A stretch of 64,000 nt of DNA from Cocleimonas flava (GTDB taxonomy: Bacteria; Pseudomonadota; Gammaproteobacteria; Thiotrichales; Thiotrichaceae): positions 248,001-312,000 of the forward strand of contig NZ_SMFQ01000005.1 in assembly GCF_004339015.1 (NCBI RefSeq). The letters are read 5' to 3'. Position numbers and translations under genes: made by a program. The notes below the pieces were generated by a model. It made no database searches. It saw only the letters and a list, made by a program, of their open reading frames with translations, and was not told the DNA's origin. Numbering within the stretch: the stretch's first letter is position 1; the number at the start of each line of letters is the position of its first letter. Positions 46,069-63,181 of this stretch are shown one piece after another.

Positions 46069-47271
46069 ATGAATATACGCAATATACGCATTGTCGACTA
46101 CGAATCCACAACCGCTGCCGCTGATAACATAGAGCAACTTCGCATTGCTATTAAAAACCAAACCAGTGGACTGCGTAAAAATGACTTCCCTTTTTCTGAT
46201 TTAGACACATGGATTGGGCGGGTAAGCGCTATTGATGATATTGATTTGGGCGAATGGCAAAGTCGCAACAATGCGATGGCGGCATACGGCTTGCAACAAG
46301 GAACAATTTTAGCGCAACTTGAAACTCTGAAAACGCGTTTTCGTCCTAGTCGAGTCGGAATCATTATGGGATCCAGCACATCAAGTATCGACCGCACTGA
46401 GACGGCTTATCGTCATCTGGATGAAAATGGCGCGCTGACACCAGAGTATCAACAAGCAACCGTACACAACCCACATGGACCGGGGTTATTTGTCGCTCAT
46501 AAAACAGGCGTGACGGGCCCTGCCATTACCATCAATACCGCATGTTCCTCATCTGCAAAAGTTTTTGCCACAGGCGCAAGATGGCTCCAAAGCCATGTGG
46601 TTGATGCTGTTTTAGTGGGTGGCGTTGATACCTTGTGCTATAGCGTTTTGCACGGTTTTGATTCCCTGCAGTTACTCTCTCAAAATCCTTGTAAGCCGTT
46701 TGATAATGACAGAGATGGCATCAATCTGGGCGAAGCATCTGGCTATGCCATTTTAATGCGCGCAGAAGATTGTGAAACAGATACAGGCATCGAGTTAGCG
46801 GGTTATGGTGAAAGCTCGGATGCACACCACATGTCACACCCACATCCCGAAGGATTGGGCGCTAAACAGGCGATAGAAAGTGCGTTGAGAATGGCAAATC
46901 TCCCTGCCGAAGAGATTGATTACATCAATCTACACGGCACATCGAGTCAGGCAAATGACTCTATCGAAGGAAAGTTAATAGGCTCTATGTTTCCATCATC
47001 CACACAATGCTCTTCTACAAAAGGCTGGATGGCACATACATTAGGTGCTGCGGGCATCACTGAAGCATTAATCGCTATAGATGCTGCGAGAACTGATTTA
47101 ATCCCTGGCTCTTTGAATTTAAGCAATCTGGATAGCGAGCTGGATTTTTCTATTACACCTGAAAATATCGAGCGCTCATTGACTCATGTAATGTCCAACT
47201 CATTTGGTTTTGGTGGCAATAATTGCTGTCTGGTTTTCAGCAAGACTGATAACAATAAGGGTAGCGCTTGA
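46069..47271 (+). CDS. Beta-ketoacyl synthase (aryl-polyene type, first KS)
   Basis: Thiolase-fold condensing enzyme of 400 residues. The active-site Cys159 (INTACSSSAK), His289 (NLHGTSSQ) and His323 (MAHTLGAAG) make it catalytically complete. It heads the plus-strand pigment operon and overlaps the next gene (KS-like) by 4 bp at ATGA. In aryl-polyene clusters one KS elongates with a chain-length-factor partner and another primes or works alone; which role this one has cannot be settled by sequence. No clear ribosome-binding site precedes the ATG. Confidence 0.9.
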   Translation: MNIRNIRIVDYESTTAAADNIEQLRIAIKNQTSGLRKNDFPFSDLDTWIGRVSAIDDIDLGEWQSRNNAMAAYGLQQGTILAQLETLKTRFRPSRVGIIMGSSTSSIDRTETAYRHLDENGALTPEYQQATVHNPHGPGLFVAHKTGVTGPAITINTACSSSAKVFATGARWLQSHVVDAVLVGGVDTLCYSVLHGFDSLQLLSQNPCKPFDNDRDGINLGEASGYAILMRAEDCETDTGIELAGYGESSDAHHMSHPHPEGLGAKQAIESALRMANLPAEEIDYINLHGTSSQANDSIEGKLIGSMFPSSTQCSSTKGWMAHTLGAAGITEALIAIDAARTDLIPGSLNLSNLDSELDFSITPENIERSLTHVMSNSFGFGGNNCCLVFSKTDNNKGSA

Positions 47272-48098
47272 TGAGTGATAATATTTTACGATGCTCCATT
47301 AAAGCCGTTGGCGGCTGGGGACAAAATTATACAAACTGGCAAGAACTTTCTGAACTACTGACCACTGGCGCTACCGCTGAAAATACAGCAAGCAGTCCTA
47401 AGCCAGAAATTATCCCTGCCAACGAAAGACGACGCGCACCTCTGCCTGTAAAGCTTGCAGTTGAATCCTCATGGCAGGCGACACAATCGGCGGGTTTAGA
47501 CCCGAAAGATTTGGCATGCGTTTTTGTTTCTGGTTTAGGCGACACCCAACTCACAGACTATATGTGTAAAGTGCTGGCTACCGAAAACATGCAATTATCG
47601 CCAACCAAATTTCATAATTCGGTACACAACGCCGCCGCAGGCTACTGGACGATTAGTACGGGTTGCATGAAAGCAGCAAACTCTGTCGCAGGTTTTAATG
47701 AATCTGTATCGCTAGCAATACTCGAAGCGGTTACCCAGTGCGTTCAAGAACAAGCTCCTGTGCAGATTACGTTTTATGACGCGCCCTCTTCTGAAATTCT
47801 CAAACCGCTATTAAAAAATGATCAGTCGTTCTCCGCCTCACTCATTATTGAGCCTGTTTTAGAATCAAATCAAACCGATTCAAACCTACTGGAAATGCAA
47901 GTAGTGTCACAAGCAACAGAATGGCCAGAACTCGATTTGGAAACTCACCTTGATACGAGCTACAAACAGAATCCATCCGCTAGAATTCTGGCAGTATTAA
48001 ACATGCTGACAAAAGACTCTGCAGATACTGTTTTACTTCCACTCAGCGCTGAAACATCGCTTCAGTTAACCTTACATAATCCTAAGTTAGTTAATTAA
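47268..48098 (+). CDS. Short KS-like protein (Ketoacyl-synt_2, chain-length-factor-like)
   Basis: Protein of 276 residues containing only an N-terminal ketosynthase-like half, as in PF13723. The marker is KFHNSVHNAAAGYWTISTGC. It lacks the two catalytic His regions of a full KS. In aryl-polyene synthases such a protein (ApeC type) pairs with the KS as a chain-length factor. It starts at an ATGA overlap with the KS gene, so coupled translation and complex formation are likely. Confidence 0.78.
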   Translation: MMSDNILRCSIKAVGGWGQNYTNWQELSELLTTGATAENTASSPKPEIIPANERRRAPLPVKLAVESSWQATQSAGLDPKDLACVFVSGLGDTQLTDYMCKVLATENMQLSPTKFHNSVHNAAAGYWTISTGCMKAANSVAGFNESVSLAILEAVTQCVQEQAPVQITFYDAPSSEILKPLLKNDQSFSASLIIEPVLESNQTDSNLLEMQVVSQATEWPELDLETHLDTSYKQNPSARILAVLNMLTKDSADTVLLPLSAETSLQLTLHNPKLVN

Positions 48099-48099
48099 T

Positions 48100-49677
48100 A
48101 TGTCCAATACGCAAAACCATGATGTCGTGATAGCGGGAGGCGGACTTGCAGGCCTTACGCTTTCCATGCAACTCAAACAACAATCCCCTGATTTAGATGT
48201 TGCTGTGTTAGAGCAGAGAACATTTCCTGTTCCCGAGACGATTGCCAAGGTGGGCGAATCTACGGTAGAAATTGGCTCTCATTATTTTAGTGAAGTATTG
48301 GGACTAAAAGACCATTTTGAGAAAGATCATTTACGTAAGTATGGGCTGCGTTGTTTTTTCGGTGAGCAGCAATCAGACTTTTCAGGTCAAGATGAGTTAG
48401 GTATAAGTGATCTATTCGGCATTCCTACCTACCAGATAGACCGAGGCGTGTTAGAAAACAAACTCCACAGGGAAGCAAGCAAGCTAGGCGTAAATGTCAT
48501 AGATGGTATTTCAACCAGCAATATCAGACTTGATAAACACCATCAACAAATCGATATTACGAATAACGGCGACATCAAAACCCTTAACTCCAAGTGGTTT
48601 GTGGATGCTGCCGGACGTCAAATGCTGGTTAAAAAAGAACTCAATCTAGCCAAAGAGAATGACCATAAAGCCAATGCAGTCTGGTTTCGCATTGATCGAC
48701 AAGTCACATTAGATGACTGGACTTCAAATAGTGACTGGCAAAACCGCCTTGTTGAATCAGGCAAACGATGGTTAAGTACCAATCATTTGATGGGTCCCGG
48801 CTATTGGGTTTGGGTAATCCCTCTTGGTACTGGCACAACCAGTATCGGCATCGTTATGGATGATCAGATTTTTGAAGAAAGTGACTTTAACGATTACGAT
48901 GATGCATTCGCCTGGCTAGCCAAAAACCAACCACATTGTGCCAATGCGATTGAAGGTGCCGAGGTTTTAGATTATGTCGCTATAAGAGATTACTCTTATG
49001 ATTGTAAAAAGTACTTCTCAGAAGATGGCTGGGGTTTGACTGGTGAAGCAGGCGTATTTGCTGACCCTTTCTATTCCCCAGGTAGTGATGCAATCGCTAT
49101 GAGCAACACGTTTATTAGCAGCTTGATAAGCACTCAAAAAGAAAAGAACAATATCAGCCTCGAAAGTGTTGTTTTCAACAGCCTGCAAAATAACTATTAC
49201 GAAAATACACTTTCTCTATACACCCAGCAGTATGGTGGTTTTGGAGACCGCAGAATGATGGGCACCAAACTACTTTGGGATTATTCGTATTACTGGGGCA
49301 TATTGAGTTTATTGTTTTTCAAAAATACCTTTGTTGATATCGATACGATACGCGAGCTAAACCCTCTCCTAGCAAAAGCGAAGATGCTCCATCAGCAAGT
49401 TCAGGAGAAATTAAGAGAAAGAGCCAGCAAACGCATTATTCAACCTGCACAAGGCATTTTCCTTGATCAGTACCTGATTCCTTGTTTACGCCATTTCAAT
49501 GATGTCTTAAAAGACTATGAAACTGTGGATATTAGAGAGGCTGTAGCCACCAATACAGAGATGCTCGAGCGCATTGCGAAATACTCACTTGAGTTCTTGT
49601 CTGACAACCCTAGCCAATCTATCAGCGATGATGAAAGAGACCTGCTGGGTGATTATCGACACAGTGTTTTAGCGTAA
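48100..49677 (+). CDS. Flavin-dependent halogenase-like enzyme 1
   Basis: FAD-binding protein of 525 residues. A Rossmann GGGLAG (13-18) starts the FAD domain. The VGEST loop (51-55) and Lys80-Tyr-Gly (LRKYGLRCFF) recall the halogenase K-x-G-x-x-F region with the catalytic lysine. The halogenase WxWxIP signature is exact: Trp236-Val-Trp238-Val-Ile-Pro241 (GYWVWVIPLG). GEAGVFADPFYSPGSDAIA is the second FAD-binding segment. WxWxIP is taken to block monooxygenase activity, so chlorination or bromination of the aryl head group is inferred. A flavin reductase partner is not in the window. It starts 1 bp after the KS-like gene. Confidence 0.8.
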   Translation: MSNTQNHDVVIAGGGLAGLTLSMQLKQQSPDLDVAVLEQRTFPVPETIAKVGESTVEIGSHYFSEVLGLKDHFEKDHLRKYGLRCFFGEQQSDFSGQDELGISDLFGIPTYQIDRGVLENKLHREASKLGVNVIDGISTSNIRLDKHHQQIDITNNGDIKTLNSKWFVDAAGRQMLVKKELNLAKENDHKANAVWFRIDRQVTLDDWTSNSDWQNRLVESGKRWLSTNHLMGPGYWVWVIPLGTGTTSIGIVMDDQIFEESDFNDYDDAFAWLAKNQPHCANAIEGAEVLDYVAIRDYSYDCKKYFSEDGWGLTGEAGVFADPFYSPGSDAIAMSNTFISSLISTQKEKNNISLESVVFNSLQNNYYENTLSLYTQQYGGFGDRRMMGTKLLWDYSYYWGILSLLFFKNTFVDIDTIRELNPLLAKAKMLHQQVQEKLRERASKRIIQPAQGIFLDQYLIPCLRHFNDVLKDYETVDIREAVATNTEMLERIAKYSLEFLSDNPSQSISDDERDLLGDYRHSVLA

Positions 49678-49747: not shown

Positions 49748-50314
49748 GTGAATTCAAAAAAAATACTATATGCCCTGATAGCCATTGTGACTGTGGCCTA
49801 TCCCTTTATCGTCTATTTCAGTCTCGATAAATTTGGACCTTCTCTGCTTTCTTTGGCGCTTTTTATTATTTTACTAGCACGAGTCATTCTAAGAGGCGAA
49901 TTTCAAAGACCGGAACAATATGCCCAACTGATTTTAGTAGGTGGATTGTGTGTAATTGCGGCATGGTTTAATAGTGAAGAATTACTTCGTTATTATCCCG
50001 TCATGATGAATCTTGCTTTTGCAGGATTTTTTGCGTTGTCACTCACCACTGAAACATCCCTGGTTGAACGCTTTGCCCAGATGTTTATGAAAGAAATTCC
50101 CGATGAAGGTCGGCAGTATATGAGAAACCTTTCGATGGTCTGGGCCGTTATTCTTATTGTTAACGCAGCCATAGCCTTCTACACCGCATGCTGTCTTTCA
50201 CTTCAAGCCTGGACTTTCTATAATGGCTTTTTAGCGTATATTTTCCTCGGTGGTTTTATGGCCCTTGAATACGGTTACCGTCAAATTCACATTAAAAGAC
50301 ACGAAGAAAAATGA
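49748..50314 (+). CDS. COG4648-type membrane protein of aryl-polyene clusters
   Basis: Hydrophobic protein of 188 residues with about six helices (roughly 5-23, 28-47, 60-77, 83-102, 133-155, 163-181). The segment SLVERFAQMFMKEIPDEGRQYMR in the cytosolic loop resembles the small membrane protein found with pigment genes in E. coli and Vibrio. The exact role, perhaps helping export or precursor handling, is unknown. It starts at GTG 49748 and overlaps the following dehydratase by ATGA. Confidence 0.7.
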   Translation: MNSKKILYALIAIVTVAYPFIVYFSLDKFGPSLLSLALFIILLARVILRGEFQRPEQYAQLILVGGLCVIAAWFNSEELLRYYPVMMNLAFAGFFALSLTTETSLVERFAQMFMKEIPDEGRQYMRNLSMVWAVILIVNAAIAFYTACCLSLQAWTFYNGFLAYIFLGGFMALEYGYRQIHIKRHEEK

Positions 50315-50763
50315 CAGGAATGAATCAAATAATCAGTGCAGAAGAGTTAAATCAGCAATATCCTGAGAAGGATAAATGGCCAACATTCTCTGCGTATGAA
50401 ACACCCAGCATTTTACCTACAGATAACTCTTACGATGTCATTTGTGACATTCCTGCGAACTTATCCTATTTTAAAGGACACTTCCCAGATCAGGCTGTAT
50501 TACCAGGCGTGGTTCAGATTAACTGGGCGAATGATTTAGCGAAACGGATATTCAAATACGAAGAATTCAGAGGCGTTAATTCTTTAAAATTTAACACCAT
50601 GATTTTGCCTGAAACCAAGGTAATCTTATCGCTCACCTTAAGCCCTAAAAAACACACCGTGAAATTTCGATACACCTCGATCACAGAAGACGATTCAATG
50701 ACGGAAGAAAAGGATGAAATACTTTTTTCATCTGGCATATTCGTATTTTCAGAGGCTAAATAA
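50311..50763 (+). CDS. ApeI-like 3-hydroxyacyl-ACP dehydratase
   Basis: Hotdog-fold dehydratase of 150 residues. The motif FKGHFPDQAVLPGVVQINWA, with the His of GHFP and the LPGV-Q pattern, is typical of the aryl-polyene dehydratase ApeI. It removes water during each polyene extension cycle. It overlaps the membrane-protein gene and leads by 8 bp into the GT2 gene. The length is within family range. Confidence 0.87.
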   Translation: MTGMNQIISAEELNQQYPEKDKWPTFSAYETPSILPTDNSYDVICDIPANLSYFKGHFPDQAVLPGVVQINWANDLAKRIFKYEEFRGVNSLKFNTMILPETKVILSLTLSPKKHTVKFRYTSITEDDSMTEEKDEILFSSGIFVFSEAK

Positions 50764-50771
50764 TTTATATC

Positions 50772-51503
50772 ATGTCTTATTGTCTTGTCGTCCCTCATTA
50801 TAATCACTTCCAGTCTTTTGAAGCATTCTTGCCTAAGCTTGAATCATTAGGCCTAGCTTGCATTGTTGTTGATGATGGCAGCGATCAAGAACAACGCAAA
50901 AAGCTTGAGGAATTGCTCAGTAACTACCCTGAAATAACACTACTAAAACACGGATACAATCGGGGCAAAGGCGCAGCAATTTTGACTGCAGCCCATGCAG
51001 CAAGACAGGCTGGACATACTCACATCATTCAAATTGATGCCGATGGCCAGCACAATATCGATGATGTACAAGAACTCATATCACATAGCGAAAACAACCC
51101 ACACAAAATAGTTTCCGGTGCGCCCTATTTCGATGAGAGCGCCCCCAAAGCAAGAGTGTACGGCAGAAAGGTAACGAGCTTCTGGGTTGCGCTGGAAACT
51201 CTGTCGTTTGATATCAAAGATAGCTTGTGCGGTTTTAGAGTCTACCCACTTAAAGAGTTTGAAATTGTTTTTGATAATTACAATGTCGGCAAACGCATGA
51301 CATTTGATACGGATATTTTAGTCAAATCACATTGGGAAGGCATCAAAACCGACTTTATCGACACAAAAGTCATTTACATCGAAAACAATGTGTCTCATTT
51401 TCATTATATGAGAGATAATTTACTCTTAATCAAACTCCACACCAAGTTAATGCTAGGTATGCTGATTCGCATTCCTAAAATTATACTTCTAAAATTTAGC
51501 TAA
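50772..51503 (+). CDS. GT2-family glycosyltransferase
   Basis: GT-A fold enzyme of 243 residues with VVDDGSD, NRGKGAAILTAA and the metal-binding DADGQHN. It resembles dolichol-phosphate-mannose-synthase-like GT2 proteins of pigment clusters, in which a sugar may link the polyene to its lipid. Donor and acceptor cannot be told. It is followed 2 bp later by the LpxL-like gene. Confidence 0.87.
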   Translation: MSYCLVVPHYNHFQSFEAFLPKLESLGLACIVVDDGSDQEQRKKLEELLSNYPEITLLKHGYNRGKGAAILTAAHAARQAGHTHIIQIDADGQHNIDDVQELISHSENNPHKIVSGAPYFDESAPKARVYGRKVTSFWVALETLSFDIKDSLCGFRVYPLKEFEIVFDNYNVGKRMTFDTDILVKSHWEGIKTDFIDTKVIYIENNVSHFHYMRDNLLLIKLHTKLMLGMLIRIPKIILLKFS

Positions 51504-51505
51504 AC

Positions 51506-52537
51506 ATGAGTAATTCCAGTAACACTAAGAACAACGAGCAAACAGCCGCAAGTGACGATTCTCACTGGTCTTCCGCTCAGGAAGCTGGGACGTTGTTTGG
51601 GTTACGTTTTCTCTGGCTGATCCATAAAACGCTTGGACGCAAAGCTGTGTCTATATTGTTATTACCCACGGTTGCTTACTTTGTGATTTTTCGTGCTGAT
51701 TCACGTAAAGCATCGCAAGAATTCCTGAAAAACCATTACCAGCAATACCCTGACTTCTGGAAGCGCAAACCTAAGTTTTCCGACACTATTCGTCACTTCC
51801 GTCAATTCGCCGAAACTGTTGTCGATAAACTCTCATCCTGGTATGTGGAGCTTGATAGCGACCTATTTAAAATTCACTCACCAGAAGTCGTCGAAACCTT
51901 ACTAAACGATACTCGCGGACAACTGATTATTGGTTCTCATTTTGGCAATCTGGAATTCTGCCGTGGCTTTATGCATCGCTATAAAGACAAATCAATCAAC
52001 GTATTACTTCATGATAAGCATTCACAGAACTACACCAACATCATGGCTCAATTGAACCCAGATTCGAGACTCAATGTGTATCAGGTTGATGAGTTCAATA
52101 TCAATACGATCCTGTCTTTTAAGGAAAAGTTAGATGCAGGAGAATGGCTCTTTATAGCAGGAGACAGAATTCCACTAACAGGCGTGGAGCGTACGGTCAC
52201 TGTAGATTTCTTTAATAAAAAAGCGGCATTACCGATTGGCCCTTATTTACTGGCGAAGGCATTAGATTGCCCAGTAAAACTAATGTTTTCTTACCAAGAC
52301 TTTGCAGATAAATCTGGGCAGATACAATTTGAAGTGGTCGACTTCGCTGAAAAGATTGTACTAAGCCGCAAACAACGACAAAGCGATATTGAGAACTACG
52401 CACAAAGGTTTGCCACAGAATTAGAAAAGCAGTGCGCTAAAGCGCCTTTTCAATGGTTTAATTTTTATGATTTCTGGCTACCTGAAGAAAACACTCAGGA
52501 ACAAATTAACACTATCGCTAACAAGGAAGTAGCATGA
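51506..52537 (+). CDS. LpxL/HtrB-family acyltransferase
   Basis: Membrane-associated acyltransferase of 343 residues. The catalytic His-x4-Glu occurs in GSHFGNLEFCRG. One hydrophobic segment near residues 45-62 anchors it. It probably transfers an acyl (perhaps the polyene) chain to a lipid carrier, as proposed for pigment clusters. It overlaps the dehydratase at 52534 by ATGA. Confidence 0.85.
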   Translation: MSNSSNTKNNEQTAASDDSHWSSAQEAGTLFGLRFLWLIHKTLGRKAVSILLLPTVAYFVIFRADSRKASQEFLKNHYQQYPDFWKRKPKFSDTIRHFRQFAETVVDKLSSWYVELDSDLFKIHSPEVVETLLNDTRGQLIIGSHFGNLEFCRGFMHRYKDKSINVLLHDKHSQNYTNIMAQLNPDSRLNVYQVDEFNINTILSFKEKLDAGEWLFIAGDRIPLTGVERTVTVDFFNKKAALPIGPYLLAKALDCPVKLMFSYQDFADKSGQIQFEVVDFAEKIVLSRKQRQSDIENYAQRFATELEKQCAKAPFQWFNFYDFWLPEENTQEQINTIANKEVA

Positions 52538-53007
52538 GCGATTTAGCAACACGCTTTGACCCAGAAATATTAACATTAATTCCACACCGCCCACCTATGC
52601 TGTTGATTAACAGGATATTGGAAGTTGGCGAAAAACAATCGAGTGCTGAGGTGTTTATCGACATGGAAACCCCTTTTTATGAAAAAGATTTTGGCGTACC
52701 AGCAACCATTGGTTTGGAATTCATGGGACAAACTGCTGCGTTAATCGCAGGCAATCAAGCGATAAAAAATCCGGCAGATGCCAAGCTTGGTTTTTTACTG
52801 GGAACTCGAAAATACCAATCCAAACTATCTTATTTTAAAGAAAACAGTGTACTGGTCGTCGAATGCAGCGAAAGCGCTATGGTAGGAGAAACTCTGGCAA
52901 GTTTTAGTTGTACAATTCGTTATAAAGACGAAGCAGAAATCATTGCCACTGCCAACTTATCTGTACTTCGTCAGCCAATAAATAAATCACCTGTAGAGAA
53001 TCATTAA
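52534..53007 (+). CDS. ApeP-like 3-hydroxyacyl-ACP dehydratase
   Basis: Second hotdog dehydratase, 157 residues. LIPHRPPMLLINRILEV is the characteristic opening, and EFMGQTAALIAGNQA holds the central helix. In E. coli the two dehydratases work together. It starts at an ATGA overlap and is followed 2 bp later by the second KS gene. Confidence 0.85.
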   Translation: MSDLATRFDPEILTLIPHRPPMLLINRILEVGEKQSSAEVFIDMETPFYEKDFGVPATIGLEFMGQTAALIAGNQAIKNPADAKLGFLLGTRKYQSKLSYFKENSVLVVECSESAMVGETLASFSCTIRYKDEAEIIATANLSVLRQPINKSPVENH

Positions 53008-53009
53008 TA

Positions 53010-54257
53010 ATGCCAGCTTCATCAAAATTACCCAATCGAGTCGTTATCACTGGCGCTGGCAATATCTCGTCAATGGGCTCAACCTGGGAAGAAATAAAAA
53101 CATCTTTTGAAAGCAAACAATCAAAAGTGTGTTACATGGAAGAATGGGATCAATACCCCGAGCTTAAAACGCGTCTGGCTGCACCCATCAAAGACTTTGA
53201 GCTACCAGACACCTATCGCCTAAAAAAGAAAAGAAGCATGGGTAGAGTGGCACAGATGGCTGTACGTGCCACTGAATTAGCGCTTAAAGAATCAGGTTTG
53301 TATGGTGAAGATGTAATTACTAACGGTCAGACAGGCGTGAGCTTTGGCTCTGCAACGGGCAGCAGCGCGGGTGCTGTAGAATTCTTCAGCATGCTCGAAG
53401 AACAGTCGATGGAACGCATCAATACCACCACCTATATTCGCATGATGAGCCACACAGCAGCGGTGAATATAGGCATATATTTTGGCACCAAAGGACGCGT
53501 ATACACAACCTCAAGCGCTTGTGTCGCAGGGAGCCAGGGCATTGGTTATGCCTATGAAGCGATTCAGTCGGGCAAACAAAAAGTCATGATTGCTGGTGGC
53601 GCAGAAGAACTTTGCCCAACTCAGGCAGCGGTGTTCGATACCATCTTTGCTGCCAGTATCACCAATGACACCCCCCACCTTTCGCCCCGTCCTTTTGATA
53701 AAGATCGTGATGGTCTTGTATTAGGCGAAGGCGCTAGCTCATTGATATTAGAGTCTTACGATCACGCTAAAGAACGCGGCGCTACTATTCTTGCTGAAAT
53801 CATAGGATACGGTACAAACTCAGACGGCTCGCATATCATGCGACCAAATCAGGAGACCATGCAAAGCGTGATGCAAATGAGCCTTGATGATGCCGGAGTT
53901 ACAGCAGATCAAATTGGTTATGTTAGCGCGCACGCCACAGCGACCGAATACGGCGATATCGCAGAATCACAAGCGACGTTAAATGTACTCGGCAAAAAGC
54001 CAACCAGCTCGATTAAAAGCTATACTGCGCATAGTCTTGGTGCCTGTGGTGCATTTGAATTGTACTCCACTATCCAGATGATGAATGAAGGCTGGTTCGC
54101 GCCCACACTAAACCTAACTGAAGTTGATCCAAGGTGTGCTGATTTAGATTATATCCAGGGTGATCTGAGAGCGATTGATACTGATATGGTTATGAGCAAT
54201 AACTTTGCATTTGGCGGGATAAATACATCTTTAATTGTAAAAAAGTTTAAAGATTAA
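53010..54257 (+). CDS. Beta-ketoacyl synthase (FabF/ApeO type, second KS)
   Basis: Elongating KS of 415 residues with the triad Cys171 (SSACVAGSQ), His308 (SAHATATEY) and His341 (AHSLGACGA). The segment VYTTSSACVAGSQGIGYAYE closely resembles ApeO. It is probably the partner of the chain-length-factor-like protein and extends with malonyl-ACP. It is the last gene of the plus-strand operon and is followed by a terminator-like repeat. Confidence 0.92.
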   Translation: MPASSKLPNRVVITGAGNISSMGSTWEEIKTSFESKQSKVCYMEEWDQYPELKTRLAAPIKDFELPDTYRLKKKRSMGRVAQMAVRATELALKESGLYGEDVITNGQTGVSFGSATGSSAGAVEFFSMLEEQSMERINTTTYIRMMSHTAAVNIGIYFGTKGRVYTTSSACVAGSQGIGYAYEAIQSGKQKVMIAGGAEELCPTQAAVFDTIFAASITNDTPHLSPRPFDKDRDGLVLGEGASSLILESYDHAKERGATILAEIIGYGTNSDGSHIMRPNQETMQSVMQMSLDDAGVTADQIGYVSAHATATEYGDIAESQATLNVLGKKPTSSIKSYTAHSLGACGAFELYSTIQMMNEGWFAPTLNLTEVDPRCADLDYIQGDLRAIDTDMVMSNNFAFGGINTSLIVKKFKD

Positions 54258-54299: not shown

Positions 54300-55175
54300 C
54301 TAAGCGCTAGGGATGTTCCTGTTTGTTATCTCAACCGCTTTTCTCTCGTTTCTATCATTCCAGGCTTGTCCGCGAGTTTTACGCATCAACCCTTCTACCG
54401 TTCTGGTCACGAAAATATTTTTTAATAGACTTAAACGCTGACTAAACTTGGTAGGAAATGCACGCAAGGTCATGGAAAAGCCAATGTCTTCATAGACAAT
54501 ATAATGCCAATAACCAGAGGGGATGAATAAAGCATCGCCGTGCTTTAATTCTGCTTCGTAACCTTTTACGTACTTTAACGCAGGGTATTTTTCAAAATCA
54601 GGATTTAAAAAATCCACATCGTATAAAGCACTGAAAGAGAACGGCACTTTATACATAAATTGGGTTTGTTCTGGCGGAATAAGTAATACTTTTTTAACAC
54701 CACCAAAATGACAAAGAATCAGGTTCGCCAGATCAATATCGTAATGCATCTGGACTTTGGCGCCACGCCCACCAACGAATAAAACTGGTAGTTTCTTAAA
54801 GAACTTAAGACCGATATCAGGATAGGAAAAATCCTTAATCATCTGAGGTGCATTATTCAGGATATTATAAAAAAACATGCGTAAATCGTTTTCGCCGTTT
54901 TTCAGTAAATTCAAGTAATCACGCAACGGCATTTCCCTCGCAGCAGCATGTTGATGTGATTTGCCTACGGCTGGTTTACTGCTGTACACAGGTACAACCT
55001 CATCACCCAGGGTTTCAATTAAATAATCGACATCCCATTTTTCTTTGGCAGGCCAGTCTTCCATAAGAGTGGGTAAGATTACCGGAATGCCAGTATCTTT
55101 ATGATTTTTGAAAAATTGCTCCTTGGTAATTTCCGAAACACGCTTTACTTTATTGGGGGCAATTTTTTCAAACAT
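54300..55175 (-). CDS. Cupin_8/JmjC-like Fe(II)/2-oxoglutarate oxygenase
   Basis: Protein of 291 residues. The iron facial triad is visible as His144-x-Asp146 (QMHYDID) and His224 (SGYWHYIVYED). HFGGVKKVLLIPPEQ and KHGDALFIPSGYWH are hallmark strands of cupin_8 (JmjC) proteins. It is probably a hydroxylase. Within the pigment operon a tailoring hydroxylation of the aryl head or polyene is inferred. It starts 1 bp after halogenase 2, so the two are probably produced together. Its presence is not usual for E. coli-type aryl-polyene clusters. Confidence 0.8.
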   Translation of the reverse strand: MFEKIAPNKVKRVSEITKEQFFKNHKDTGIPVILPTLMEDWPAKEKWDVDYLIETLGDEVVPVYSSKPAVGKSHQHAAAREMPLRDYLNLLKNGENDLRMFFYNILNNAPQMIKDFSYPDIGLKFFKKLPVLFVGGRGAKVQMHYDIDLANLILCHFGGVKKVLLIPPEQTQFMYKVPFSFSALYDVDFLNPDFEKYPALKYVKGYEAELKHGDALFIPSGYWHYIVYEDIGFSMTLRAFPTKFSQRLSLLKNIFVTRTVEGLMRKTRGQAWNDRNERKAVEITNRNIPSA

Positions 55176-55176
55176 A

Positions 55177-56493
55177 TCAGTGACTATTCTGTTCTTTTTT
55201 TGTAAAGGGTTTTACCGCATAGCCGTTCAAGACTTCCTGATCCTTCAATAGCTGACGGCAGCCATGATACAACAGGGATTGATTTACCTTAGAACGGGTT
55301 TTGATACCAGTGACCATCGATGAAATTATTCTGCTGTATAACTTCTCAGCCATTTTACCCACAACCGACGACTTGGGATTTTCCAGTATGGACTTGCCCT
55401 GTTCGGACAAACTCATCAATCGACCATCGTAAAAATAGTCAATGAGTGTCGTCCACGACTGATGCCAGCTATTTACCTGTTGTGAGTATTTTTCTAGATT
55501 CGCCGTGGTAATTTTAGGACTACTGAATACGATTTCATCAATGCTTTGTGCCGCATTTAATGCCATAAAAACACCTGGGGAAAGCATTGGGTCGACAAAA
55601 CCAAAAGCATCACCCAGCATAACCCAGCCCTTTCCATAGCCTTTCTCAGAAAGTAATTGGTAATTGGAATAACGCATGACTTTGCTAATACGTTTGGCAT
55701 TCTTTCCTTCATCTTTTAGCAAGGAATTGTGTTTAATCACATTATCTAAACGCTCTTCCGGGGTATCTCCGTAACTCTTGGCGGCCTGTTTATTGAGCAC
55801 CACACCGACAGATAATTTTCCTTTTAAAGGAATTTGCCATGACCAGCCGTGATCTAAGATGGAAACAACAATTTGGCCTTCAATCACTTCTTTGTATTCG
55901 AAGTTCTCAAAATGAGCAAAATACGCAACATCATCGCGACCACCACGTTTTGCCGGAATATCAAGCAAGCGGCTAAAAAGACGACTTCTACCTGACGCAT
56001 CAATCAAAATATCTGGATGTGTTTCTGTACACAACCCAGCATCATTCAAAGACGCTTCAGACAACATTAAATCTCGGTCTGAATTCTCAGGTGTTAATTC
56101 TAATGTCGCTTTTTTATTCACAAAACGAACACCAACCTCTTCAGCGCGTTGGCGTATCAGTGAATCTAGTTGTGGGCGAGGCGTATTGTAAGAAAAGTTA
56201 GGATAACGTTTACCGGGCGTTTGAAACGGGATATCCATGCGTATGCCACTGCCATGCCTAAAGGATGCACCCCGTTTAATTTGTGAAATAGCGGCGACTT
56301 TTTCTTCAATTCCTAAGCGACGGAAAATGGGCACGACTGCGGGCAAATTTGATTCGCCTACGATTAATTCTGGTTTGCTCAAATTATCATAAATAGTGAC
56401 CGCGATACCTCTCTCGATGAGAAAGCACCCTAGCGCGCAGCCTGATGGCCCCGCACCTATAATCGCAACACTTTTAACTTGTTTATCCATCAC
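55177..56493 (-). CDS. Flavin-dependent halogenase-like enzyme 2
   Basis: FAD-dependent enzyme of 438 residues. GAGPSG (13-18) opens the nucleotide domain, VGESN at 45-49 and Lys73-Arg-Gly-Ala-Ser-Phe (IKRGASF) match the halogenase lysine region. The WxWxIP motif is exact as Trp217-Ser-Trp219-Gln-Ile-Pro222 (HGWSWQIPLKG). GDAFGFVDPMLSPGVFMAL is the third FAD region. Compared with halogenase 1 it is shorter and resembles the phenolic or pyrrole halogenase group. It is paired with a cupin oxygenase gene. Confidence 0.82.
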   Translation of the reverse strand: MMDKQVKSVAIIGAGPSGCALGCFLIERGIAVTIYDNLSKPELIVGESNLPAVVPIFRRLGIEEKVAAISQIKRGASFRHGSGIRMDIPFQTPGKRYPNFSYNTPRPQLDSLIRQRAEEVGVRFVNKKATLELTPENSDRDLMLSEASLNDAGLCTETHPDILIDASGRSRLFSRLLDIPAKRGGRDDVAYFAHFENFEYKEVIEGQIVVSILDHGWSWQIPLKGKLSVGVVLNKQAAKSYGDTPEERLDNVIKHNSLLKDEGKNAKRISKVMRYSNYQLLSEKGYGKGWVMLGDAFGFVDPMLSPGVFMALNAAQSIDEIVFSSPKITTANLEKYSQQVNSWHQSWTTLIDYFYDGRLMSLSEQGKSILENPKSSVVGKMAEKLYSRIISSMVTGIKTRSKVNQSLLYHGCRQLLKDQEVLNGYAVKPFTKKEQNSH

Positions 56494-56560: not shown

Positions 56561-57304
56561 CTAACACATGCCACCATTGACGCTAATCGTTTGGCGCGTG
56601 ATATAAGCCGCTTTATCAGAAAACAGAAAACTAATGGTTGATGATATATCACTGGCTTGACCAAAAGTGCCCATCGGGATCATCTTCTTAGCTTCTTTGA
56701 CATAGGCTTCTTCCTTAAAAAGACCCTCAGTCATATCTGTTTCGATAACTCCGGGAGCAACCGAATTGACAGTGATTTTACGTTTCGCCAATTCGATCGC
56801 GAGCGATTTACTGGCGCCTATAATACCTGCTTTGGCAGCACTGTAATTGACCTGACCACGGTTTCCGATTAAGCCAGAAACAGAGGTCAAGGTCACAATT
56901 CTACCGCCCTGTCTTAAACGAATCATAGGCATAATCAACGGATATAAAACGTTATAAAAGCCATCAAGATTAGTGTGGATCACACTATCCCACTGCTCGG
57001 CTTCCATCGCAGGGAATGCCGCATCATCAGCGATACCAGCATTACAAACAACACCATAGAAAGCCCCGTTTTTCTCTAAATCTGCCTCTAACAACGCTTT
57101 GGTTTGTTCTCTATCACCAATATCAAATTGCATGATCTGACCTGAGCCACCTGCTTTATCGATAAGCTCAAGCACTTCATCCGCAGCTTTTTGATTACTA
57201 TTGTAATGCACAGTGACATCAAAGCCATCAGCGGCCAGTTCGATAGCGGTTGCCTTGCCGATACCCCGACTTGCGCCAGTGACCAATACTCTTTTTTTAC
57301 TCAT
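56561..57304 (-). CDS. 3-oxoacyl-ACP reductase (FabG/ApeQ type)
   Basis: SDR-fold ketoreductase of 247 residues. The NADPH motif is TGASRGIG near residues 9-16, the catalytic Ser is in TLTSVSGLIG and the Tyr-x-x-x-Lys in YSAAK. It ends with ITRQTISVNGGMC. It reduces the beta-keto group in each polyene extension round. It lies between the MMPL exporter and halogenase 2. Confidence 0.92.
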   Translation of the reverse strand: MSKKRVLVTGASRGIGKATAIELAADGFDVTVHYNSNQKAADEVLELIDKAGGSGQIMQFDIGDREQTKALLEADLEKNGAFYGVVCNAGIADDAAFPAMEAEQWDSVIHTNLDGFYNVLYPLIMPMIRLRQGGRIVTLTSVSGLIGNRGQVNYSAAKAGIIGASKSLAIELAKRKITVNSVAPGVIETDMTEGLFKEEAYVKEAKKMIPMGTFGQASDISSTISFLFSDKAAYITRQTISVNGGMC

Positions 57305-57341
57305 GATTTGTTTTCCATAACAGCGAACTCTATCGCTATTT

Positions 57342-59771
57342 TTAATGCGTTATTGCTTTGTTTGCCAAAAACTCGGCATAGATCAACGAAGCAATTAAAT
57401 TAAAACTATTCCCAATAAATAAAATCATACCAAAACTTTGTGCAACCGGAATAGCGCTTAAACCTAATAACCCGAAAGACAACAGACTTGTGATTGCGGA
57501 AATAAAAATAGCCTGCTGTGTGACATTTCCGTCTTGAAGTTCATAGGCAAAAATACCGTAATCCATCCCCAGGCCCAGCACCAGAAACAACGCCATTACA
57601 TGAAATAGATTGAAGGACACACCCAATACATTCAAAAGCACAATTAACGCTGCGGTGGCACACAATGGAACCAAAACAATGTTTAAAGCAGATAACTTAC
57701 GATATCGACTCAAAATTAAAAGTGCAATTAAAGCATAAGCCACAAGTAACAATTGAGTGGCTGAAACGCGTTGATCTGCCAATGATTTTTTCGCGCTTTC
57801 GACCGTATTCACATAGTTTACAAAAGGCATCGTGTTGCTAAGCTTTTCTAAGGCTTCAAAGTCTGTTCCTTTGGCGATTAAGATAAAGTTTCGGAAATTG
57901 TCGCCAGCTTCAGCTTTGCTATTTTTATGCCCTTGCTCTACTAGCCTTTGTTCGACCTGCTGTTTTTTTGTATACCAAAGCGGTGGCAGTATCTCGTTAA
58001 AAAGCTCGTTCAGTTGTTGCGGCTCTAAGATCAGCTTTTCTGAGTTTGCATATTCAGTTTTGATTGCTTCTGCCTTATTTTTCTCCACACCCAATAAGGA
58101 ATACAAGGCATCAACGGCTTGATTGTCTCCGTATAGCTTTCCCTGTATCTGATAGTTCTCACGCTGCTGTTGAGGCGTTGGCAACCATTGCGTAATACTT
58201 TTAAAATTATCGGCTATAAGTGGGGGGGTGGCTTTTACTTTATCGTAAAACGACTCTGTTAGGCCAATAAGCTCTTCAGAGCTCTGACCACTGATTACCA
58301 CGAATCTACCTGGTTCATAGTCCGAAGCTATTTGGGATACAGCAACCTCACTCGCTAATATTTCAGGATCAGGCGTGAAGAAAAAACGTGGATCATCGCT
58401 GGTTTTAACAGCAAATATATTGAGCGCCAAACTCAGCATTAATAGCACAATCGTTATAACGACGACTCTGGGACTAAAAACCGCTAGAGGTCGCTTGAAA
58501 ATATCCAATATAGTATTGACGACGGTATTATTCGCCTTAATTCTTTTACTCGAATATTGCCCTAAACAAATAACGCTCAACCACGCCATCGTTAGACCAC
58601 AGCAAGAAAACACAGCCACCTTTTTCAAGGCATCGAGTTGAGAAAAATATAAGGCTAAATATCCTAATAATGACGTCACCAAACTTAACAATAGTGCGCT
58701 ATGTAATCTGGATTGCGAATGCTCAACACTATCCTCAGCGACAGAGCTTGGGCCATTTGATAATGCCTGAGATTGATGGAAGAAATAATGAATCGAATAG
58801 TCGATTACAATTCCGATCAAACTTGCGCCGAACACGATGGTTAATATGTGAATTTTCCCGTAAATAAAATGCGAAACGGCAAAGGCAAAAGCAACCCCAA
58901 AAGCGATCGATAAAAACGGCAGAATCAACGGCACCACACTACGAAACGTTAAGAGCAATACCAGCAGCACGCCAACCATCGAAATAGTGGATATAAAACT
59001 GATATCTTTTTTAGATTTACTCGCCGCATCCACGGCAAAGAAAAACACACCTGAGCGCAGTATTTCAATCTTGTATTTGTCTTTAAGGTCTTTACTAATC
59101 GTGTTGATATCAGCAAGCAGTTGATTCTGCCCGTCTAATCCCAACCCACCTTTTTGCAATTTAGTTTGGATAACTGCGTATTGTTTTTTGTTCTTTTTAT
59201 TTTGCCCGGCATCATCGCTACTGCTAGCTTCAGAACCATGGGTTTGCGCCTGCTCCAAATCTGCGCTTATCTTCTGCAGAAACTCATTAAAATATTCGCT
59301 ATGAACGCCTAGAGGGTCTTTTTCAAAAGACATGAGTGGTGCATTTGTGAGTCGAAACAGCTTCGCCTGAGCTTGTTTTGCAAGCTCCTCTGCACTTTCT
59401 TGTTTAATATTTTTCTGCGCTGCTACAGTGAGTAAGTGAAACCGGTATTTTGCCAGTGAATCAATGATATCAGTCAGCGATAAAGCATCACTCGATAAGA
59501 CAGTTAATGGCTTAAGTTCGGATAAGCGTTTGCTCAAATCTGCCTTTGCTGCATCAAGTTGTTGCTTATCATCAGCACCTACGACGAACAAAATATTACG
59601 ACTGATATTTTCAGTCAGTCCATCCATCGCATCTTGTGTTGATTGATCTAATTCCAGGTCTGGTGAAAGATCACCAAGGCTGGTATCGACAACGAGTTTG
59701 CCGCTGCTTTGAAAAAAGAAGGCAAGCGTAAAAACAATGCAGATTACAAATAGTGATCGCCAAACAATCAT
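57342..59771 (-). CDS. MMPL/RND-type exporter
   Basis: Twelve-helix transporter of 809 residues with two large periplasmic loops. The first is at about 25-250, the second at about 430-610. LVLGLGMDYGIFAYE and LIGIVIDYSIHYFF are the two RND-like helices. In aryl-polyene clusters it is thought to move the pigment lipid across or out of the inner membrane. It overlaps no gene but starts 10 bp after the LolA-like gene. A dispersed repeat copy lies in frame in the second loop (58212-58236). Confidence 0.9.
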   Translation of the reverse strand: MIVWRSLFVICIVFTLAFFFQSSGKLVVDTSLGDLSPDLELDQSTQDAMDGLTENISRNILFVVGADDKQQLDAAKADLSKRLSELKPLTVLSSDALSLTDIIDSLAKYRFHLLTVAAQKNIKQESAEELAKQAQAKLFRLTNAPLMSFEKDPLGVHSEYFNEFLQKISADLEQAQTHGSEASSSDDAGQNKKNKKQYAVIQTKLQKGGLGLDGQNQLLADINTISKDLKDKYKIEILRSGVFFFAVDAASKSKKDISFISTISMVGVLLVLLLTFRSVVPLILPFLSIAFGVAFAFAVSHFIYGKIHILTIVFGASLIGIVIDYSIHYFFHQSQALSNGPSSVAEDSVEHSQSRLHSALLLSLVTSLLGYLALYFSQLDALKKVAVFSCCGLTMAWLSVICLGQYSSKRIKANNTVVNTILDIFKRPLAVFSPRVVVITIVLLMLSLALNIFAVKTSDDPRFFFTPDPEILASEVAVSQIASDYEPGRFVVISGQSSEELIGLTESFYDKVKATPPLIADNFKSITQWLPTPQQQRENYQIQGKLYGDNQAVDALYSLLGVEKNKAEAIKTEYANSEKLILEPQQLNELFNEILPPLWYTKKQQVEQRLVEQGHKNSKAEAGDNFRNFILIAKGTDFEALEKLSNTMPFVNYVNTVESAKKSLADQRVSATQLLLVAYALIALLILSRYRKLSALNIVLVPLCATAALIVLLNVLGVSFNLFHVMALFLVLGLGMDYGIFAYELQDGNVTQQAIFISAITSLLSFGLLGLSAIPVAQSFGMILFIGNSFNLIASLIYAEFLANKAITH
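58212..58236 (-). repeat. Dispersed G/C-run repeat, copy 12, inside the exporter coding sequence
   Basis: On the minus strand AAAAGCCACCCCCCCACTTA then TAGCC. It is an exact family member with the CCCCCCC variant and is in frame, adding KATPPLIAD to the second periplasmic loop. Being coding, it cannot serve as a terminator in its host gene. Confidence 0.85.
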
Positions 59772-59781
59772 GAATGATTAC

Positions 59782-60486
59782 TCAGTTTTGACCGCTGGTA
59801 GTGATTCGAACCGGATTCAATAATAATTTACAGCCATCAGCAGAAAGCGATGCACAGCTCTCTGAAAATGCAGCATCTTTAGAGAGTTTATCGTTCATCG
59901 CATATTGCTGTGTTTCGCTACTCACTATTCTGGTTACTTGCTGATTTTTATCGGTGATTGAAATCTGTAATTCATTTTTAGCGCTTGGCTTTGCTAACGC
60001 AACAGAATCAATAGCCTGTTTCACCATTTTGTTTTTCGGTACTAAACTTAACTCAACGCCTGTCGCATCATTCTTTGAAATCTGGATATCGAATTCTTTT
60101 GTTATGAACTCAGTATTGCCAGCCATTAAGCCCAATAACAGATTCGCCAAGAAGTCATGCTGAACGCCATCCAGATTTTCGACTGAAAGCTTTTCTGGCA
60201 CTAAAAAATTGAGTTTTTGATTAGTAAAAACCAGCGACTCGACAATCGGCTTTTGCGTTTTCCAGATTAAACCTAAATCACAGGAATAAATGAATTCGCC
60301 CATTGAAACCAATGGAACTGGTAGACTTTTTATTTGCTTGGTTTGAGTGAACTCACCGGAGAAGTTACACGCTTCTGGCATCATAGACTTTAATGCTTTT
60401 ATGTTTTCTGGCGTATTGGCGCTTAGTGAAACACTACTAACTACACTGGCCATCAAACAAAGCATTAACAAAAAAGGTCTAATCAT
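59782..60486 (-). CDS. LolA-like periplasmic carrier protein
   Basis: Protein of 234 residues with a signal peptide (about 1-23). The pattern SGEFTQTKQIKSLPVPLVSMG and the following FIYSCDLGLIWKTQKP are LolA-like. Members in pigment clusters probably shuttle lipidated pigment from the inner to the outer membrane. The C-terminal region has Cys pairs that may form a disulfide. It overlaps the thioesterase start by 4 bp (ATGA). Confidence 0.82.
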   Translation of the reverse strand: MIRPFLLMLCLMASVVSSVSLSANTPENIKALKSMMPEACNFSGEFTQTKQIKSLPVPLVSMGEFIYSCDLGLIWKTQKPIVESLVFTNQKLNFLVPEKLSVENLDGVQHDFLANLLLGLMAGNTEFITKEFDIQISKNDATGVELSLVPKNKMVKQAIDSVALAKPSAKNELQISITDKNQQVTRIVSSETQQYAMNDKLSKDAAFSESCASLSADGCKLLLNPVRITTSGQN

Positions 60487-60962
60487 GCATCACCTTGTTC
60501 TTCTGGTTTTTCATCAGCTAGGGCCTTAAATGCAGCATCGACGCTATCCAGGAGTTGTTTAGGCGCATCAAACTGGGTGATTTCTTCTGGCATCTTTACA
60601 GCAAATTGCGTCGTCTGCCCCTTGGTAACCACATCTCGCGTTGCGACATCAACAATTAGATAATCGATAACGAGCTTATGCTCCCACTCTTTCAGTTCTG
60701 CAGTAATTTCAAACTGCTGTTCAAACCGCAAAGGCCTGATGTACTTGGTGTGCAGATCAACCACTGGATAAAAATAGCCAGTTTCTTCCATATCTGCATA
60801 GGTGAAGCCTATTTTAGACAGCAATTTACAGCGCGCTATTTCAAAATATTTCGGGTAGTTGCCATGCCATACGATGCGATATGAATCGACATCATAAAAA
60901 CACACTTCCATGGGAAGTGTGACACTCAGTGTCGGACCTGCTTTTTTTGAATTGGTTTTCAT
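60483..60962 (-). CDS. 4HBT-type thioesterase
   Basis: Hotdog thioesterase of 159 residues. The motif CFYDVDSYRIVWHGNYPKYFE, with the catalytic Asp, is typical of YbgC/4-hydroxybenzoyl-CoA thioesterases. It probably releases the finished acyl chain or edits the ACP. It overlaps the LolA-like gene by 4 bp and follows the ACP by 16 bp. Confidence 0.87.
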   Translation of the reverse strand: MKTNSKKAGPTLSVTLPMEVCFYDVDSYRIVWHGNYPKYFEIARCKLLSKIGFTYADMEETGYFYPVVDLHTKYIRPLRFEQQFEITAELKEWEHKLVIDYLIVDVATRDVVTKGQTTQFAVKMPEEITQFDAPKQLLDSVDAAFKALADEKPEEQGDA

Positions 60963-60978
60963 TAAACTGATATTTCTA

Positions 60979-61230
60979 TTAGATTTCTACGATGATTTTA
61001 ACCACATCATCGATAGTTCTCGCATCTTTAAATAGCTTCGGTGATAAATCTTTGCCGATATGCTTTTTTAGCTCTACCATCAGATCTACCGTATCAATAC
61101 TGTCAATATCAAGGTCTTGATAGAGGCGCGCATCTGCGACCAGTTCTGCTTCTTCTAATTCAAATAACTCGATTAATTTTTCTTTCAACTGTTGAAGAGT
61201 TTGTTGATAGCTTTGTTCATAACTGTTCAT
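60979..61230 (-). CDS. Acyl carrier protein 1
   Basis: Four-helix carrier of 83 residues with the phosphopantetheine site Ser44 in DIDSIDTVDL. It is one of two ACPs in the cluster; the other is at 63436. It lies between the PlsC-like and thioesterase genes on the minus strand. In known aryl-polyene systems one ACP carries the starter and the other the growing chain. Which is which here is not known. Confidence 0.92.
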   Translation of the reverse strand: MNSYEQSYQQTLQQLKEKLIELFELEEAELVADARLYQDLDIDSIDTVDLMVELKKHIGKDLSPKLFKDARTIDDVVKIIVEI

Positions 61231-61369: not shown

Positions 61370-61398
61370 AAAAACGCCTATAAGTGGGGGGGTGGCTT
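61370..61398 (-). repeat. Dispersed G/C-run repeat, copy 13, at the end of the PlsC-like gene
   Basis: On the minus strand AAGCCACCCCCCCACTTATA then GGCGTTTTTTT. The repeat encodes the last residues (PPPHL) and the TAG stop, and then provides a GCC/GGC stem and T-run. It may partly terminate transcription before ACP 1. Confidence 0.87.
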
Positions 61399-62187
61399 AT
61401 CAGTTTTGGTTGTATAGTTATCTAATTGCATAATTGCCGTTAGATAATAATCCCTTAAAAAATCAGTTAAACGACGGTATTGAATGGTTCTTGCCAAGCT
61501 TGTATCAATGCATTCCTCAATGGTTAACGTAGGATTTATCCGCACTAAAATTTTTGATTTGATATCAGGAAGCTGATACCAGCTTTCATACTTTTGCAAT
61601 GCACGCGGCGAACACGTTATAAGAAAAGGAACAATATCGCTATTTGCATGAATCGCTATATTCGCGGCACCACGCTTGAATTCCAATTGAGTGTCGTATT
61701 GGTTACGCGTACCTTCAGGAAATATTAGAATATTTTCACCAGCGGCAAGTTTCTCCGCAGCCATGCCTATCAGATCTTCTTCATCATTAGGAATATAACC
61801 GGCCAGACTCACGGTTAGGCGTGTTACAGGATTACGAAAAAGTGCTTCTTTCACCACGCAACATACATCATCTACATAGGCTAAAATAAATAACGCATCA
61901 ATCAACATAGAATGATTGGAAATGACAACTTTGCCTTTGATTTCATCGCTATTAAGTCGTTCTAAATCATAAGACATCAAGCCCAGAAATTGCATAAAAT
62001 CGACATAGAACTTACACAGTCTTTGTATGGTTTTACGGATTTTTTTCTGTTTCCCTTCCTGATCCTTAACAAAAACAACAATCAAAACAGCATGAATGAC
62101 GGGAAAGAATGCGCCCACAGTAAATACAATATAACTAATGCCTGCAGCGATAATCCGCCAGTAATGGTTGAGAGATAGAATCTTCAA
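61378..62187 (-). CDS. PlsC-like 1-acyl-glycerophosphate acyltransferase
   Basis: Membrane acyltransferase of 269 residues with one N-terminal helix pair (about 10-40). The catalytic His-x4-Asp is in NHSMLIDAL, and the second motif is FPEGTRNQYD. It probably attaches the aryl-polyene acyl group to a glycerol-phosphate-like lipid, as such enzymes do in pigment clusters. The C-terminus is made by a dispersed repeat, so the ancestral stop was probably different. Confidence 0.88.
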   Translation of the reverse strand: MKILSLNHYWRIIAAGISYIVFTVGAFFPVIHAVLIVVFVKDQEGKQKKIRKTIQRLCKFYVDFMQFLGLMSYDLERLNSDEIKGKVVISNHSMLIDALFILAYVDDVCCVVKEALFRNPVTRLTVSLAGYIPNDEEDLIGMAAEKLAAGENILIFPEGTRNQYDTQLEFKRGAANIAIHANSDIVPFLITCSPRALQKYESWYQLPDIKSKILVRINPTLTIEECIDTSLARTIQYRRLTDFLRDYYLTAIMQLDNYTTKTDKPPPHL

Positions 62188-62230: not shown

Positions 62231-63181
62231 CTAAGCGCAATAGCATTCAACTTCGACAAGCAAGTTAGAACGGCAAATATCGGCAATCGTGTAGATTTTC
62301 GCCGCATCGGGAAAATCTTTATCTAATGATTTTTTTGATTCTTCCAGGCAAGATTTATTTCGCAGATACACTTTCATGGTTTGAATCGAATCAACTTCGT
62401 AGCCGGTTTTTTCCAGCAAGTGGAAAATATTATCTTTTGTGATTTGTAGTTGGGCGGCTAAATCACCCTCATGCAACGTCTCATGTCCAATGATACTAGC
62501 CGTACCAGAGATAAATAACAGATTGCCTTTAGGATGTTCGAGGCTGGTTGCACGTGCAAAAGACGGACTACTGATACCATATTGACGCGGATACTGATAA
62601 GCGTTCTGCTGTTTATTATTGGTATGGTGAATGCCCTTGTAAACGCTGGATATTGCGTATATCGTCATGCCGCCAGTGACATTTCCAACGGCAGTAGCTG
62701 CTGGGAAATCAGCATCGTTTATGCCCGCCTGTTTAAATGCTTTGAGGCGACCATTACAAAATAATTTATAGTTTTCGTTATCGCCCAACCCTTTATTGAT
62801 CGCAGGCACATAGTTCCAGAAACGTAACAGATTACGTTGTTCGGTTTGATTAATAAATGCTAATAACTCTGCATAAACAGACTCGGTTGCTGCCTCTAAG
62901 TCTTCACATTCTTCTGCTGTTAAGCTAATAGAGGTAAACAAAAAACCTCCAGATTCAGACCACTTGCATAAGCCAGATATTCCGCTTATTACAGGCTCAT
63001 CTTTAATCTTCCATAATTCATGAACAAAATCGCTGGCATCGGTTCTACCGAGACCTGAAGGTATGTGATTTTGATTTTGACTTTGACGAGTGATCGGGCA
63101 ATCGAAACCAATAACAGCCAAATTCTGGGATTCTGCATTGAGTTGTTCTGCCGATGCACTCGAATAAGAATTAATAAGCAT
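62231..63181 (-). CDS. Chorismatase of the XanB2/Hyg5/FkbO type
   Basis: Protein of 316 residues. The segment QNAYQYPRQYGISSPSFARA, with LLFISGTASIIGHETLHEGD and CRSNLLVEVECY at the end, matches chorismatases with a RidA-like C-terminal half. XanB2 converts chorismate to 3- and 4-hydroxybenzoate, and 3-hydroxybenzoate is the xanthomonadin starter. This enzyme replaces the tyrosine/histidine-type ammonia-lyase of E. coli aryl-polyene clusters, so the head group here should come from chorismate. Product specificity cannot be told from the sequence. It opens the minus-strand operon. Confidence 0.88.
   Translation of the reverse strand: MLINSYSSASAEQLNAESQNLAVIGFDCPITRQSQNQNHIPSGLGRTDASDFVHELWKIKDEPVISGISGLCKWSESGGFLFTSISLTAEECEDLEAATESVYAELLAFINQTEQRNLLRFWNYVPAINKGLGDNENYKLFCNGRLKAFKQAGINDADFPAATAVGNVTGGMTIYAISSVYKGIHHTNNKQQNAYQYPRQYGISSPSFARATSLEHPKGNLLFISGTASIIGHETLHEGDLAAQLQITKDNIFHLLEKTGYEVDSIQTMKVYLRNKSCLEESKKSLDKDFPDAAKIYTIADICRSNLLVEVECYCA

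Follow-up and report, generated by a model that had tools for sequence, protein, structure and literature searches.

A Probable FAD-Dependent Halogenase beside the Ketosynthase Pair of a Xanthomonadin-Type Aryl Polyene Cluster in Cocleimonas flava

HAL1 of Cocleimonas flava, encoded at 48100–49677 on the forward strand of the 64,000-nucleotide stretch of DNA analyzed here (the window), is probably an FAD-dependent halogenase of the phenol/pyrrole branch that tailors the yellow pigment of a xanthomonadin-like aryl polyene pathway. The features that underlie this assignment are (i) the protein family, (ii) the sequence motifs, (iii) the predicted fold, (iv) a conserved KS–CLF–halogenase gene order, and (v) the presence of hydroxybenzoate-type starter genes. 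Judged from sequence, halogenation is the likely activity; we further infer bromide as the halide, a ring position as the site of modification, tethering of the substrate to an ACP, and the need for a separate reductase. Pigment-linked halogenases beside KS/CLF genes are already known, and HAL1 is a further member that extends the type to a Cocleimonas-like gammaproteobacterium. It provides a sharp family signature, consisting of an invariant K80-x-G-x-R84 and an SPG loop, and offers a simple way to test which halide is used and whether aryl polyenes are halogenated on or off the carrier protein.

Gene and Cluster Organization

The HAL1 frame is open throughout and encodes a halogenase-type flavoprotein of 525 residues, identified as such by Pfam, sequence, and fold matches. 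Directly upstream on the same strand lie a ketosynthase (46069–47271) and a CLF-like protein assigned to Ketoacyl-synt_2 by Pfam (47268–48098). The latter overlaps the 3′ end of the ketosynthase gene, and a single base separates its stop from the ATG of HAL1, so that the placement of the halogenase directly after a KS/KS-like pair in the initial annotation is correct.

Downstream of HAL1, the forward-strand arm of the cluster (49748–54257) encodes, in order, an IspA/VC0807-like membrane protein, an ApeI-like dehydratase, a GT2 protein, an acyltransferase, an ApeP-like dehydratase, and a second ketosynthase. A reverse-strand Cupin_8 protein (Pfam; 54300–55175) separates the two arms and has matches in two other loci as well (L003 and L005). 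The reverse-strand arm comprises the second halogenase-type flavoprotein HAL2 (55177–56493), a block encoding a KR, an MMPL exporter, a LolA-like protein, a thioesterase, and an ACP (56561–61230), a PlsC-type acyltransferase (61378–62187), and a chorismatase of the FkbO/Hyg5/XanB2 type that would provide a hydroxybenzoate starter (62231–63181). These are followed on the forward strand by a second ACP (63436–63702) and an AMP ligase that starts inside the window at 63733 and ends beyond it at 65103.

The genes around HAL1 form a xanthomonadin-type aryl polyene cluster, in which both starter genes of that type, the chorismatase and the AMP ligase, are present. Among solved structures, the chorismatase is matched best by 5ag3 (E = 6.4e-38), which we take to be Hyg5, a chorismatase of the 3-hydroxybenzoate type; this match points to a hydroxybenzoate starter made by the chorismatase. 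No flavin reductase is seen among the annotated genes of the HAL1 cluster, and one PF01613 gene occurs elsewhere in the same genome. Scans for regulatory signals yield 16 promoter-like sites versus 18.4 expected and 11 terminator-like sites versus 6.8 expected (sd 2.4).

Conserved Position beside KS/CLF

KS and CLF-like genes lie upstream of HAL1 in 30 of its 31 relatives from named records, and the contig of the remaining relative (L031) shows HAL1 only, with the match beginning at base 351. A GT2 gene is inserted between CLF and HAL1 in seven loci (L016, L017, L021–L024, and L030). The Variovorax locus L014 has no GT2 at this place, which fits a figure legend in PMC3691225 that gives the mannose-synthase-like ORF15 as absent in Variovorax. 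Two Burkholderiales-type loci, L027 and L028, carry two KS–CLF pairs upstream of HAL1, with a KR match between the pairs in L027.

The same arrangement recurs in a sample of 151 genomes from the order of Pseudofulvimonas (G185), in which HAL1 is found in 35 genomes and a CLF match in 70. A CLF match is present in every one of the 35 genomes with HAL1, as compared with 35 of the 116 others (Fisher p = 4.6e-15, uncorrected for kinship), and in 33 of the 35 the HAL1 match begins downstream of it, on the same strand, at a distance of 6–2279 bases. The two exceptions are G337, in which the CLF match is ~66 kb away, and G208, in which it is 9 kb away on the other strand. In the class as a whole, sampled evenly, HAL1 is much rarer (2 of 185 genomes) than the CLF match (38 of 185). 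Its two carriers are the genome of this window and G038, which has no CLF match and in which HAL1 resides on a 4.5 kb contig with no other cluster gene beside it.

A natural with/without comparison is offered by G144 (L035; G144:C47, 1–4000), where the KS, CLF, IspA-like, ApeI-like, and GT2 genes follow one another in order and HAL1 is absent. HAL1 is thus regarded as an optional part of the cluster that is mostly found beside KS/CLF when present.

Apart from G038, HAL1-type genes are found at a distance from aryl polyene genes on two plasmids, which counts against a strict tie to the pigment pathway. One, from Janthinobacterium (J. lividum; L078, 12001–13317), is 40% identical to HAL1 and is located near a type I PKS and a gene with an Asp/Asn beta-hydroxylase domain; the other, from Gloeothece (L079, 12001–13350), is 35.5% identical and adjoins hpaB. 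Both carry K-x-G-L-R, WVW.IP, and SPG.

Published pigment clusters show a comparable layout. According to the accessible portion of a 2013 paper (PMC3691225), the KS/CLF-like pair (ORF16–ORF17 homologues) has halogenase genes beside it in several genomes, including the Xanthomonas xanthomonadin clusters, where the halogenase, by the published description, occupies the same place as HAL1. In the legend to Fig. 5 of that paper, L. enzymogenes and Xylella fastidiosa are given as lacking the flanking halogenase. A legend in PMC3838355 depicts a Xanthomonas cluster with a halogenase and with XanB1, labeled a “putative reductase/halogenase”; by analogy, these two may parallel HAL1 and HAL2. A direct test of an aryl polyene halogenase was not found in the literature searched, with most subscription journals outside the reach of that search.

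Sequence Family and Predicted Fold

The initial annotation matched HAL1 to the flavin halogenases, and this is borne out by the Pfam assignment to Trp_halogenase (E = 2.8e-14), by the best solved match of the single sequence, PltA (E = 7.8e-21), and by the 31 relatives in named records, the closest of which is 98% identical and lies on a contig of an uncultured Cocleimonas. PltA is followed by 3nix, an uncharacterized flavoprotein from Cytophaga, and then by Mpy16, CmlS, FasV, ChlB4, and Bmp2. When the family alignment A1 (32 rows) serves as the query, the order of solved matches is 3nix, CmlS, PltA, ChlB4, and FasV.

The AlphaFold2 model of HAL1 has a mean pLDDT of 93.3, and its top fold relatives are 3nix, PltM, CtcP, FasV, and PltA. 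Among the best 50 Foldseek matches listed, rows 1–45 are flavin halogenases and 3nix, after which come a geranylgeranyl reductase-like protein and hydroxylases. The best matches by sequence and by Foldseek are thus halogenases plus the uncharacterized 3nix, rather than non-halogenating FAD hydroxylases. VIA-align gives Z values of 31.1 for 3nix, 30.6 for PltM, 30.4 for Bmp2, 30.2 for CtcP, 29.5 for PltA, and 26.4 for CmlS. The alignments with the PltM chains and with CtcP extend into the C-terminal residues of the model. With a Z of 27.4, p-hydroxybenzoate hydroxylase follows close behind most of the halogenases and ranks above CmlS, and therefore the fold alone does not separate a halogenase from a hydroxylase. 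The structural comparison with tryptophan, phenol, and pyrrole halogenases that the initial annotation had proposed accordingly returns a halogenase-type fold that is shared with hydroxylases.

Conserved Motifs

HAL1 contains the FAD-binding GxGxxG motif as GGGLAG (residues 13–18; 48136–48153), which is found in 29 of the 32 rows of A1; the other three (L023, L030, and L031) begin after the motif owing to the chosen start. Re-reading of the translation also places Lys80 (codon 48337–48339), which opens the segment KYGLRCFF, and WVWVIP (residues 236–241; 48805–48822) where they were first described. The Fx.Px.Sx.G motif, which is used as a flavin halogenase motif in PMC12645471, appears as FADPFYSPG (residues 320–328; 49057–49083), with its F, P, S, and G invariant in A1. 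In all, K80, R84, W236, W238, I240, P241, F320, D322, P323, Y325, S326, P327, and G328 are identical in all 32 rows. The lysine, WxWxIP, and SPG motifs are likewise present in 20 of 20 further loci examined out of the 35 order-sample matches. One of them, L090, has KIGES instead of KVGES and retains the lysine, WTWLIPL, and DPFYSPG.

The proposal that Lys80 corresponds to the catalytic lysine of PrnA holds in an hhalign comparison of A1 with PrnA (reference sequence identical to 2apg_A), which pairs Lys80 with Lys79 (probability 82%, E = 1e-5), Arg84 with Lys83, and Tyr325 with Glu346. HAL1 shares WxWxIP with PrnA and RebH but differs from them in having Tyr325 for Glu346 and Pro327 for Thr348 of the halide loop. 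Since the Glu346 position of the tryptophan halogenases is occupied by Tyr325, HAL1 is classed as phenol/pyrrole-like. The lysine is essential in two other halogenases, as the K87A variant of PltM (PMC6424973) and the K83A variant of BrvH (PMC5945002) are reported to be inactive. Translation of the mutagenic primers published in the same two papers gives I-K87-L-G-F-S-F for PltM and C-K83-L-G-I-R-F for BrvH, both of which resemble the R-K80-Y-G-L-R84-C context of HAL1.

PltA also resembles HAL1 in its lysine context (KKFG versus RKYG), WVWxIP, and DPxxSxG. It is ~22–24% identical to HAL1, has SSG in place of SPG, and has a shorter chain (433–437 residues). PltM is 15–17% identical to HAL1, shares K-x-G at Lys87, and acts on free phloroglucinol.

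Proposed Mechanism and Substrate

In the proposed reaction, a separate reductase would supply reduced FAD to HAL1, and reduced FAD, O2, and a halide, most likely bromide, would form HOX behind the WVWVIP wall. HOX would then pass to Lys80, which would direct it onto the electron-rich hydroxyphenyl head or, less likely, onto the first polyene carbon. Bromide and the ring site are assigned on the basis of xanthomonadin chemistry; the bromine of xanthomonadins sits at ring and vinylic positions. HAL1 probably acts on a hydroxybenzoyl or aryl polyene intermediate carried by an ACP. The initial annotation had read the position after the KS pair as a sign of an ACP-bound or early intermediate; the KS–CLF–HAL1 order is strongly conserved, but it does not tell which intermediate is used.

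The nearest solved relatives are split on this point, with the carrier-dependent PltA best by sequence and the free-phenol halogenase PltM aligned over more of the model. It is somewhat less probable, though a serious possibility, that HAL1 halogenates free 3-hydroxybenzoate, or the aryl polyene acid after its release, instead of an ACP-bound intermediate. The VIA-align coverage is in keeping with a free substrate: the PltM chains (Z 28.8–30.6) align over 424–437 residues and PltA over 392 residues, and the best-chain Z values are 30.6 and 29.5, respectively. Xanthomonas pigments, described in PMC3691225 as mixtures with 0–2 Br, are what late tailoring could give. Against this stand the action of PltA on a carrier-bound pyrrole, the tight packing of HAL1 with the KS/CLF genes, and the precursor feeding reported for Azoarcus in the accessible part of PMC3949708. 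There, 4-fluoro-3-hydroxybenzoate is taken up and gives labeled pigment, and ArcT activates 4-substituted benzoic acids, so that early halogenation is at least possible.

Halogenation versus Other Flavin Chemistry

A second alternative, which we consider unlikely, is that HAL1 is a non-halogenating flavin monooxygenase, either a ring hydroxylase or an oxidase, built on the halogenase fold. It would be consistent with the invariant proline of the halide loop and with a weak match of HAL1 to QhpG (56 bits, cut-off 240), a hydroxylase whose structure is described as closest to CmlS (PMC7876137). A published pathway also bears on it: in the accessible part of PMC3949708, Azoarcus arcA is annotated as “halogenase” and adjoins the XanB2-type arcB, not the KS pair, and the Azoarcus pigment is given as C41H52O4, a formula with no halogen. 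On the other side, the named solved top matches of HAL1 are halogenases, and HAL1 has intact Lys80, WxWxIP, and Fx.Px.Sx.G, all of them invariant in A1; in a review, WxWxIP is proposed to prevent hydroxylation (PMC10696468). The pigment of Lysobacter (L. enzymogenes), one of the species for which PMC3691225 gives the flanking halogenase as absent, is described there as having no bromine isotope pattern; in this one species, absence of the gene thus coincides with an unbrominated pigment.

The QhpG profile was used as a negative control and matches 14 of 143 genomes, with no match above the model cut-off, so that the control supplies no true QhpG. In eight of the 14 genomes the match lies on the same contig as a CLF match and within 25 kb of it, and many of the QhpG-model matches are therefore taken to be aryl-polyene-type flavoproteins. 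From the 41 PF04820/QhpG-model loci (L037–L077), 25 were aligned after removal of 15 repeats of a gene already used and of L051, which is cut at the contig start and lacks the lysine region. The lysine is kept in 25 of these 25 and WxWxIP in 22, and hence these two motifs alone are no proof of halogenation.

A third candidate, a tryptophan- or indole-type halogenase recruited to the cluster as the Pfam name Trp_halogenase might suggest, has next to no chance of being correct and is rejected, as 5uao (E = 2.3e-4) is the sole tryptophan halogenase among the solved matches listed for the single sequence and Tyr325 takes the place of the catalytic Glu346 in every one of the 32 rows.

The Proline of the Halide Loop

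The halide site of RebH and BrvH is described as formed by the backbone NH groups of two loop residues, T359 and G360 in RebH (PMC5945002). The HAL1 residues aligned to this loop are Pro327 and Gly328, and proline lacks the NH, a point that calls for caution over the halogenase assignment. SPG occurs in none of the nine solved relatives compared (PltA, 3nix, Mpy16, CmlS, FasV, CndH, RadH, a Bmp2 mutant, and PrnA) and in two of the 25 aligned PF04820/QhpG-model loci, namely HAL2 and one HAL1-type gene. The loops of the other 23 are SSG (16), SHG (one), and Trp-type (six). A bolder proposal, which we hold to be quite improbable, is that HAL1 represents a separate halogenase clade acting on an ACP-bound aryl head with the KS/CLF pair, in which the invariant DP[FL]YSPG[STGA]D loop, with proline in place of an amide donor, is a signature of strict bromide use. 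Such a signature, if real, would explain why xanthomonadins carry Br and not Cl.

HAL2

The “halogenase 2” of the initial annotation is taken to be HAL2, which belongs to the same superfamily as HAL1 and shares the lysine, WxWxIP, and SPG. The two proteins are 21% identical over 343 columns, and the lysine context indeed differs, as had been noted, with KRGASF in HAL2 versus KYGLRCFF in HAL1. The best solved matches of HAL2 are FasV and CndH. Its loop reads MLSPGV, with SPG at the place where most aligned aryl-polyene-type flavoproteins carry SSG.
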